From Peptococcaceae bacterium (GTDB taxonomy: Bacteria; Bacillota; Desulfitobacteriia; Desulfitobacteriales; Syntrophobotulaceae), in assembly GCA_012517475.1 (NCBI GenBank), contig JAAYUV010000094.1, forward strand, positions 1-50,438: a stretch of 50,438 nucleotides of DNA, read 5' to 3'. Shown here piece after piece: positions 3,501 to 40,932 of this stretch (its first letter is position 1; every line of letters starts with the position of its first letter). The position numbers and the translations under genes are program-made. Below the pieces are notes generated by a model. It saw nothing but the letters and a program-made list of their open reading frames with translations, was not told where the DNA came from and made no database searches.

Positions 3501-3953
3501 CTAGGCAAAGATCTGATGCTGTTCATGTCCCTAAGTCCATCATCGTCTAATATCGCCGGGGTGGAACCGGCTGCTTTCCCGGCGGGCGGCTACCAAGTCT
3601 ATGATGACCAGGTAAGGCCCAGGGTTCTAGGCTGGTCCCTGGAAGAAAGTGCAGGAGATGACTATGCTCTCGTGACATTCAGTAAGGCTATTGACGGAAC
3701 GGTCACGGGACTGTACGAAGATAATTTTACCTTCTACTATGGCGGGACAGCTTTGGAAGTTAAAGGGGTCAGAATATATACCGATGTTCTGGGCAATCCT
3801 GTTCCCAATGTCCTCGTCTATGACCTTGCAGACGGCAATTATACCCGGGATGGTATGACAGTCCGGATGAATGAGAAAAATTTGGGGGTCAGGGATGTTG
3901 CTGACAGAAGAGGGGATCACAACACAATTGTTTATAAGGACGGAACCTTATAA
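570..3953 (+). CDS. CWB2-repeat cell-wall-anchored surface protein
   Basis: Predicted exported surface protein of about 1127 residues. The N-terminus has a lysine-rich start, a hydrophobic core and a cleavage-like VFADS site (signal peptide). Three cell-wall-binding repeat 2 (CWB2) modules follow, roughly residues 35-125, 135-220 and 225-325, with the family signatures RIYGQDRIDTA and RISGENRYETN. CWB2 triplets anchor Clostridia S-layer-type proteins to an anionic wall polymer. The rest (about 330-1127) is a series of beta-rich segments resembling SbsA-like Ig modules (recurrent VTFSK, VLFSEVM and VTFSKAI strands). I chose ATG 570 over TTG 561 because AGAGG ends at 560, giving a normal 9-nt spacing only to 570. 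No enzymatic domain is recognised. It is monocistronic, with an AT-rich leader. Confidence 0.85.
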   Translation: MKWKRSLAIVTLVILITNIIPYQVFADSLVSGNVSRIYGQDRIDTALAICAAGWSTSNTVILTPANQENMADTLSALSLAGQEKAPVLLTDKDQLDKRVLDRIDKLEVRKIYAIGALSDSLINTLRGETEKSGKNIIIEVLKGQNRQETADKINSLLKNPSGLFIVGKEALVDALSAGSYAYANTFAYSYSNFNSSSISKVATQNYSDQRSLILGGQNVVQNIPGVTRISGENRYETNRAIIDILNMRSNTIYIANGADDHLADALAGAALAGKTGSPIYLTDGTGTGLNDLIKDKIKAGSSLVFLGGTSALSENARMRITGVNDSQNLSCAVSELKPLNLLQFAIEFNKTINRETGENVENYIVDGHNLTSSDASAELQADGRTVVITLNAPLVQFSSTIVEVKENKVLAADRKTSAPGFEGSITVSDKVVPVIQNVMPEGSKKLTVRFSEAVSLSNTMMDYQLWKLDGQGITTRGLQTVKVTKGIESAGRIYGTELEMYFGTSLGNGNHILEIPTKDVPEIIAGSLFKDGAGYRLDGQEVPFFIQGVSGSPTVKIEKTEGNTAYLKFDRPMYSNAQNAANNGDPASALNVNNYTINSVQGAVLSAEFIKGSDQSIVKLVISPEREAIGTNLITLNKKIEDLYGCRLVTDSEGDDIRLNFTVEDDNIKPQVEKLEVVGQNVIRVTFSKEMNGLYAMNKANYLLKNADGVSIQIDTINVVPNSNMTVIQGAYPCSDIYEIYTNQPLYGAGYTLKLTNVQDMAFRPNTISEVTLSFNGRDNTHIKALEVTGEQGGHKLVVLFSEVMSPGSILDTKNYVFLDGDNASGFRSLPTGSKINAGPENRSAVITFPDAYIINTSGISIPGHDLRYQVTALEVMNVKDEKGYVLEGGFSLLQVIPPSASAYKPQYITDSFIVKEGSNDNIRVEFKLDQVLEKYYYRDFQVGTVGNKITADSGQLNGRTVILTFTDSGKITAVRSLGKDLMLFMSLSPSSSNIAGVEPAAFPAGGYQVYDDQVRPRVLGWSLEESAGDDYALVTFSKAIDGTVTGLYEDNFTFYYGGTALEVKGVRIYTDVLGNPVPNVLVYDLADGNYTRDGMTVRMNEKNLGVRDVADRRGDHNTIVYKDGTL

Positions 3954-4029
3954 AATATTTGCAAAAAAATGCGAAGCAATGGAAAACTCGCTATATTAGA
4001 AATTTTAATGGCTAAAATGTAAGATGATA

Positions 4030-40303: not shown

Positions 40304-40380
40304 CGGGGTATAGCGCAGTTTGGTAGCGCGCCTGCCTTGGGAGCAGGAGGCCGGGGGTTCAAATCCCTCTGCCCCGACCA
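40304..40380 (+). tRNA. tRNA-Pro (anticodon TGG)
   Basis: 77 nt with encoded CCA. Acceptor CGGGGTA/TGCCCCG; anticodon stem CCTGC/GCAGG with loop CTTGGGA; T-arm GGGGG-TTCAAAT-CCCTC. All arms pair. Confidence 0.97.
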
Positions 40381-40541
40381 GCAAAAACGCTAATTGTGCA
40401 GAGGGATTTGAACAGAAAATGCGCCCCATGGAAGCATTTTCCGGCTGTGCCGTCGGACAAGGAAATGCGCCCTATGGAAGCATTTGCCAGCCCCGGCGTG
40501 ATAGCCGCGAAGCGGCGGAGCAAATCCCTCTGCCCCGACCA
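40381..40541 (+). repeat. tRNA-Pro-associated hairpin element with copied tRNA 3' end
   Basis: Directly after tRNA-Pro. Order: a 17-nt spacer; GCAGAGGGATTTGAAC (40398-40413), the exact reverse complement of tRNA-Pro 40357-40372; a 28-nt palindromic module (40415-40442; AAAATGC/GCATTTT arms around a CCCATGGA loop); a CGGC-TGT-GCCG hairpin; a second copy of the module (40461-40488); a 26-nt core (40495-40520) containing GCCGCGAAGCGGC; then an exact 21-nt copy of the tRNA-Pro 3' end (40521-40541 = 40360-40380), from C56 of the T-loop through CCA. There is no coding capacity. The inverted and direct copies can also pair with each other over 13 bp, closing the whole element. Confidence 0.85.
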
Positions 40542-40566: not shown

Positions 40567-40643
40567 GCGCCTGTAGCTCAGCAGGATAGAGCATCTGCCT
40601 TCTAAGCAGGTTGTCGGGAGTTCGAATCTCTCCAGGCGCACCA
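40567..40643 (+). tRNA. tRNA-Arg (anticodon TCT)
   Basis: 77 nt with encoded CCA. Acceptor GCGCCTG/CAGGCGC; anticodon stem TCTGC/GCAGG with loop CTTCTAA; T-loop TTCGAAT. Unlike its two neighbours it has no trailing repeat element. Confidence 0.97.
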
Positions 40644-40652
40644 TTTTTACAT

Positions 40653-40729
40653 GGTGGATGTGGCGAAGTGGTTAACGCACCGGATTGTGGCTCCGGCACT
40701 CGAGGGTTCAAGTCCCTTCATCCACCCCA
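40653..40729 (+). tRNA. tRNA-His (anticodon GTG)
   Basis: Acceptor GTGGATG/CATCCAC with an additional G-1 (40653) opposite discriminator C73, as required for histidine identity; anticodon stem CCGGA/TCCGG with loop TTGTGGC; encoded CCA at 40727-40729. Confidence 0.97.
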
Positions 40730-40932
40730 AAACGAAGACTAAGTTTTTCCGATAATAAGATGAAGAGACTTGAACGGGCGGAAAAGGCCGCTTCTGGCCA
40801 TCCATGGCCCCGCGGCACTAGCGAAAACCATGGTTTTCGCAGTGGCCGTCGAAAATGCGACCTATGGGAGCATTTACCCGCCCGGGCGTGATAGCCGCGA
40901 AGCGGCGGAGCAAGTCCCTTCATCCACCCCAA
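40730..40932 (+). repeat. tRNA-His-associated hairpin element with copied tRNA 3' end
   Basis: Order as after tRNA-Pro: a 29-nt spacer; an inverted copy of the tRNA-His T-arm (40759-40775, one mismatch to the reverse complement of 40706-40722); a palindromic middle with the perfect 20-mer GCGAAAACCATGGTTTTCGC (40821-40840); the 28-nt module (40851-40878); the same 26-nt core as the Pro element (40885-40910); then an exact 22-nt copy of the tRNA-His 3' end (40911-40932 = 40709-40730), again from C56 through CCA. No coding capacity. Confidence 0.85.

Follow-up and report, generated by a model that had tools for sequence, protein, structure and literature searches.

Repeats behind bacterial tRNA genes carry the end of their own host tRNA and may spread by template-switching copy-in

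We analysed a stretch of 50,438 nucleotides from a Peptococcaceae bacterium (GenBank assembly GCA_012517475.1, contig JAAYUV010000094.1, forward strand), hereafter the window, and found in it two members of a non-coding repeat family that lies behind tRNA genes, each ending in a direct copy of the end of the tRNA that it follows. The junctions of these repeats suggest spread by copy-in with template switching, a reading to which we give an even chance of being correct.

The first element of the window lies behind tRNA-Pro(TGG) (40304..40380, + strand; ARAGORN and Rfam RF00005) and spans 40381-40541 as a whole. It consists of an inverted copy of the Pro T-arm (40397..40413, +; 16/17 nt), a core that carries an additional REP-like hairpin (40414..40520, +) and whose right part is formed by GGCGTGATAG, a hairpin and CGGAG (40495-40520, +), and a direct copy of tRNA-Pro from C56 to CCA (40521..40541, +; 21/21). 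The second lies behind tRNA-His(GTG) (40654..40729, +; ARAGORN and RF00005) and is separated from its CCA by a trailer (40730..40758, +) that is unconserved and differs among elements. It begins with GATGAAGAGACTTGAAC (40759..40775, +), which matches the reverse complement of the His T-arm/acceptor strand at all but one position and serves as the 5' strand of stem P1. There follow the 5' strand of P2, GGGCGG (40776..40781, +; partner 40878-40883 by the structure model and pair counts), dispersed REP palindromes of the CCATGG type inserted within the core loop (40786..40851, +), the P3 hairpin AAATGC..GCATTT (40853..40875, +), the most conserved part, comprising GGCGTGATAG, the P4 hairpin and GGAG (40885..40910, +), and the direct copy of tRNA-His from C56 to CCA (40911..40931, +; 21/21).

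The first-pass annotation had reported that 40911-40932 repeats tRNA-His 40709-40730 at 22/22 positions; this holds, as 21 nt from C56 to CCA plus one more matching A at 40932. Its one-mismatch inverted T-arm was likewise re-read in the sequence, and the core identity of 26 bp that it had noted between the two elements was recovered, GGCGTGATAGCCGCGAAGCGGCGGAG of the His element (40885-40910) being identical to 40495-40520 of the Pro element. The two elements share a common plan, each with its own tRNA's end. Unlike tRNA-Pro and tRNA-His, the tRNA-Arg of the window (40567-40643, ARAGORN) has no repeated tRNA end behind it. In a search of the window against Rfam 15 only the tRNAs matched, and a permissive search of the element stretch otherwise gave chance-level results. 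More members occur in the same genome behind tRNA-Leu(TAG), tRNA-Leu(GAG) and tRNA-Ser(TGA), again with their own tRNA end in each case. Separately, the CCATGG-type palindromic REP-like family, GCCGCTCCTGGCCATCCATGGC..AAAACCATGGTTTT, is abundant in this same genome (G000; C44:54939, C113:66123 and over 20 further sites), where its repeats have also been inserted inside His- and Ser-element cores.

Altogether, 114 units were read in about 57 genomes of Desulfitobacteriales, gut Clostridia, Lutispora and Peptostreptococcaceae, behind His, Pro, Ser, Leu, Gly, Gln, Arg, Lys, Thr, Trp, Asp and selenocysteine-like tRNAs. The order of parts in a unit is tRNA, trailer (often with a terminator), inverted T-arm ending in ..GAAC, P2/P3 hairpin, GGCGTGATAG, P4 hairpin, CGGAG and tRNA copy from C56. 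The hairpin-forming core measures about 75 nt and whole units about 100-200 nt; arrays hold 2-4 units in tandem. Within the order, a pattern for the conserved right part gave 48 matches in 23 of 74 genomes and none when reversed; read with their flanks, these matches lay behind His, Pro, Ser (five anticodons), Leu and Gly tRNAs. A wider scan with GGCGTGATAG..GGAGCRARTCC against 84,980 genomes, one per species, returned 93 stretches, about seven of them chance matches with neither tRNA nor inverted arm. The remaining stretches came from Desulfosporosinus, Candidatus Dichloromethanomonas elyunquensis, Peptococcaceae, Lutispora, Peptostreptococcaceae, Lachnospiraceae and many gut Clostridia, with Ser, Leu, Gln, Arg, Pro, Lys, Thr, Trp and Asp tRNAs also among the hosts. 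The family is patchy, since the exact pattern was found in just 3 of 391 genomes in an even sample of the Lutispora class.

Several individual loci were recorded during this survey. An array near 1275-1480 of L182 (G012:C1:179500-182500) lies behind a tRNA-Sec-like gene (..CGTGGGTTCGAATCCCACCTTCTCCGCCA) that ARAGORN missed, and L183, L074 and L110 have the same tRNA-Sec-like kind of end. In L249, from an Oligosphaeraceae metagenome-assembled genome (contig JAAZKR010000230), both units match those of one Peptococcaceae metagenome-assembled genome (L198, L263); by this match, the contig was probably mis-binned rather than acquired by cross-phylum transfer. L121 (G034:C1:1802440-1802530) has a tRNA-Ser end in its element and no tRNA-Ser upstream, and stands immediately ahead of tRNA-Asn, as though its host tRNA had been deleted or parted from it.

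The claim that the ends are customised to each host tRNA, first made for the two elements of the window, extends to this large family. In 77 of the 114 units, the copy was identical to the tRNA just upstream from exactly C56 to the tRNA end. Across all 114, the distal 13 nt showed 86% identity (median 100%) to the unit's own tRNA, compared with 43% to tRNAs of other amino acids. The left edge of the copy was invariably C56, and tRNA genes without an encoded CCA were copied to their own last base (18/18 and 19/19 in L202 and L261). The inverted arm was customised too; intact arms matched their tRNA for 11 to 23 nt counted from G53, with a fixed inner and a variable outer edge. For 207 tRNAs that lacked a recognised element, the longest inverted match to the T-arm in the following 160 nt did not exceed 9 nt. 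The exceptions were about ten loci with matches of 11-18 nt, and almost all of these are unrecognised or decayed members. Chance is therefore excluded, because the element-free tRNAs mostly show matches of at most 9 nt and the reversed pattern gives none.

These observations bear on the scenario that the first-pass annotation had set against its own reading, namely that tRNAs were duplicated in tandem and an unrelated repeat was then inserted independently, a course that would involve no spread. It could draw on the tandem arrays and on the additional REP palindromes inside some cores; however, the core is homologous across all copies, the block always starts exactly at C56, and element-free tRNAs show nothing equivalent to the inverted arm. 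We regard this scenario as scarcely credible.

Two loci depart from the usual anatomy. L235 (356-836) is a four-unit array behind tRNA-Arg(ACG), whose distal copies keep just 8-9 nt of the tRNA end compared with the usual full copies; its first unit has kept P1 though it has lost the rest of its copy. L189 (2468-2640) consists of tRNA-Ser(CGA), a terminator and then an inverted T-arm, AGGTGGGATTCGAACCC, with no core, and may be either a remnant of an element or an early stage of one. L189 had also been considered, from Ser-TGA and Ser-GGA in one genome, as a case of a unit carrying its donor's trailer; this was discarded, the native trailers themselves being homologous.

The fold of the core was modelled from 28 aligned elements. 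Its four helices were 94.3% paired, compared with 88.2% in shuffles, and two-sided changes occurred at 11 pairs, compared with 4.0 in shuffles, a level reached in 0 of 500. P4 stem sequences vary widely with pairing kept, and GNA-type loops dominate. In the structure model, the core is a three-way-junction hairpin with covarying stems. Mismatches were G-T in 6 and A-C in 5 cases in P4, and G-T in 5 and A-C in 2 across P2-P4 in the alignment. The numbers are small and lack the wobble excess expected of RNA, so that the pattern leans towards hairpins formed by DNA.

The core also appears to travel between tRNAs. Mean core identity was 73.5% between different tRNAs of the same genome, 70.5% between the same tRNA in different genomes, and 63.1% between different tRNAs of different genomes. 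Identical P4 stem ends were shared by 17 of 62 within-genome pairs of different tRNAs, compared with 6.2% when genome labels were shuffled, a value reached in 1 of 2000 shuffles, although shuffling leaves some shared ancestry in the comparison. In G084, for example, the stem ends GCAACC..GGTTGC recur at Gln, Pro and Leu. Because different tRNAs in one genome share cores beyond the shuffled expectation, the core appears mobile and the ends re-made.

The sequence past the tRNA end was bimodal: about 23 of the 77 full copies matched at 13 or more of 15 bases, and the rest were near chance. In 54 of 77, the trailers behind the two copies were unrelated, and identity stopped at the tRNA end. In L095 and L096, which come from two related genomes within the order, both copies are still perfect despite divergence of the flanks and the core. 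A further process besides copy-in is needed, because most full copies (54/77) have unrelated trailers; judged from these comparisons, some contribution must come from selection on the distal end, from homogenising exchange between the direct repeats, or from whole units being replaced.

As an alternative to copy-in as the main reading, the unit might be a processed small RNA like the E. coli RtT/RttR, in which the copied end and P1 would be kept to provide a tRNA-like 3' end and the spread would be incidental. By analogy, the annotated RttR spans 171 nt and stops precisely at the CCA of the first repeat; the perfect distal copies in diverged flanks (L095/L096) and the survival of P1 in the first unit of L235 point the same way. 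However, a tRNA terminator precedes the element in many units, so little read-through is expected, several units have lost the distal end, and the wobble signal is weak. We judge an RNA function of this kind to be improbable.

Recent-looking single units retain more of the junction. In these, copy-to-copy identity extended past CCA through the trailer and terminator and ended where the inverted arm begins, giving a target duplication of 69-82 bp from C56 to a variable point, X. Clean single-unit duplications with X sharply mapped numbered just four, which counts against the reading. Identity past CCA was 48/48 nt in L067, ending exactly at the inverted arm, and 50/50 nt, to the inverted arm, in L117. 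In L084 and L138, the native sequence at X overlapped the inverted arm by 5 nt (AGGAT) and 4 nt (TGAA), respectively, overlaps that we read as microhomology at X. Additionally, the L145 genome also holds an element-free tRNA-His 3' half, displaced by an unrelated island; relative to this empty counterpart, the filled site shows three additions, namely the inverted arm, the core and a duplication of 69 bp from C56. The empty site could equally be a deletion product of recombination between the 69-bp direct repeats. By their structure, the C56..X duplications argue against simple conservative site-specific integration and fit template-switching synthesis through the T-arm.

The main competitor at these junctions is a site-specific cassette, in which a tyrosine recombinase acting in trans would integrate and excise a circle of C56..CCA, trailer, inverted arm and core at the T-loop, the distal copy being the displaced original 3' end. 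Such a cassette accounts for the identity that stops at the tRNA end with unrelated trailers in 54/77, for terminators in both trailers and for tandem arrays, and islands are well known to bear partial tRNA copies (PMC9897764). However, a circle with a donor's 3' end would give a hybrid tRNA in other hosts, yet recipient-specific ends were found in every genus; a conservative recombinase is disfavoured because, in bringing the end of one tRNA to another, it would destroy the recipient. Customisation extends to the inverted arm, and some duplications take in the local trailer up to X. The element was absent from the viral contigs, phages and plasmids searched, and no larger version bearing a recombinase gene occurred among the order-level matches. 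The cassette is, in our judgement, unlikely.

Islands of roughly 3 kb flanked by two copies (L141, L143, L144 and L145) were considered as autonomous versions and rejected, being anticodon-loop islands or a larger duplication that carry or displace the element. L145 (G001:C1, contig LNDB01000001), L141 and L143 contain small islands in the tRNA-His anticodon loop, separate from the element, which have displaced tRNA-His 3' halves both with and without it; the L145 island has, by eye, a truncated tyrosine-recombinase-like ORF at 3639-4028. In L144 (G007:C1:2608500-2616500), a 3.2-kb stretch separates two copies of the Pro element, and because the second copy begins at CCA plus the trailer, CCA, trailer and element were duplicated together. 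Every T-loop contains GTTC/GAAC. Readings as integron attC, group I/II intron or IS91-type element were also set aside, as the target words fit only through this GTTC/GAAC.

We return to copy-in with template switching. A strand end in the recipient tRNA's T-arm would switch onto an element, copy its core and return through the inverted T-arm; there, fold-back would copy the recipient's own strand, leaving a customised inverted arm, and the strand would rejoin at X through microhomology. One such event would make both ends recipient-specific and duplicate C56..X. Later, the distal tRNA end may be held identical to the tRNA by direct-repeat exchange, selection or both. The T-arm consensus GTTCRA..CCC is common to every tRNA gene, and because it is universal, any tRNA's T-arm could receive the switching strand. 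More tentatively, and with some doubt, these may be mini-mobile elements without fixed ends, of which the core alone would be inherited, both arms being re-synthesised from the recipient tRNA at each insertion by a T-loop fold-back template switch; the tRNA would stay intact and any tRNA gene would be a possible host. If this is true, re-making the ends from the target at each move is a mode of spread distinct from fixed-end transposition and site-specific integration.

The first-pass annotation had proposed a copying step, and the part that finds support is this step as such, since target duplications of variable length fit it better than conservative integration with one attachment sequence; its suggestion of tRNA-primed synthesis, or of any particular enzyme, gained no support. 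Y1_Tnp (PF01797) was absent from five of the nine element-bearing genomes searched (G001, G007, G012, G027 and G034), including several with recent-looking insertions and clean duplications, and a Y1 transposase in the same genome was dropped as a requirement. RVT_1 (reverse transcriptase) was present in eight of nine genomes, including all those searched that have recent-looking insertions, and was missing from G002, a complete genome with decayed elements. By presence in the genome, reverse transcriptases are neither implicated nor excluded.

A more specific version of copy-in would be target-primed reverse transcription, in which a reverse transcriptase acting in trans (from a group II intron or another source) would copy element RNA at a nick in the tRNA T-loop, with a 5' template jump at X. 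A precise right edge combined with a left edge and a target duplication that both vary, and with microhomology at the left-hand junction, is a hallmark of such a process, and every searched genome with recent-looking insertions has at least one RVT_1 match; set against this are the decayed elements of the RVT_1-free G002 and the small G-U excess over A-C (6 to 5 in P4, 5 to 2 in P2-P4), which is more DNA-like. We consider it decidedly unlikely.

Among known systems, tRNA-targeted integrative elements (tyrosine recombinase islands and prophages) insert at the 3' part of the tRNA and leave a direct tRNA-end copy at the far side (PMC9897764). Unlike these, the present units are about 100-200 bp long, lack an integrase, place one core at many tRNAs, include an inverted T-arm, and have a duplication that passes the tRNA end to a variable X. 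In place of a fixed attachment identity block shared by the element and one tRNA, the present block is recipient-specific across many tRNAs. For annotation, this is a warning that tRNA 3' fragments are not necessarily marks of islands. REP, REPIN and BIME sequences are similarly short, hairpin-forming and non-coding, with DNA-like stem evolution and several copies per genome. Unlike these Y1/RAYT-associated repeats, the present family is confined to tRNA 3' ends, its ends are customised, and Y1_Tnp is absent from 5/9 genomes.

A literature search, mostly without subscription journals, found no description of the present tRNA-end repeats and no explanation of an RtT-type mechanism. The closest likeness is to the E. 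coli tyrT repeats, to our knowledge an isolated curiosity so far; the 178-bp repeat was reportedly described in 1978, and RNA work on it is said to date from 1991. Read directly, the E. coli K-12 tyrT-tyrV-rttR locus has three tandem 178-bp units behind tyrV. Each runs from the tRNA-Tyr 3' end to CCA, through a trailer, an inverted T-arm (GGGGAAGGAT), a series of hairpins whose loops are of the GNA type, and GAG, to the next tRNA-Tyr 3' end, which is the plan of the present family, and in the Rfam RtT model (RF00391) the inverted arm pairs with the copied end. The E. coli locus gave four RF00391 matches, whereas neither the stretch in the window, even at E<=10, nor 18 other loci gave any. In the locus read, RtT matches stood only behind tRNA-Tyr, compared with about a dozen kinds of tRNA for the present family, and the RtT core is longer, with no relation by sequence search. 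That a second, multi-tRNA family with this plan occurs in a phylum other than that of E. coli suggests there is a general route by which DNA builds up behind tRNA genes, and its recent copies, target duplications, arrays and decayed copies offer dozens of natural experiments on the copying step. The present family works like RtT in its anatomy and lies outside RF00391 by covariance model; the plan was already known, and what is new is the range of tRNAs.
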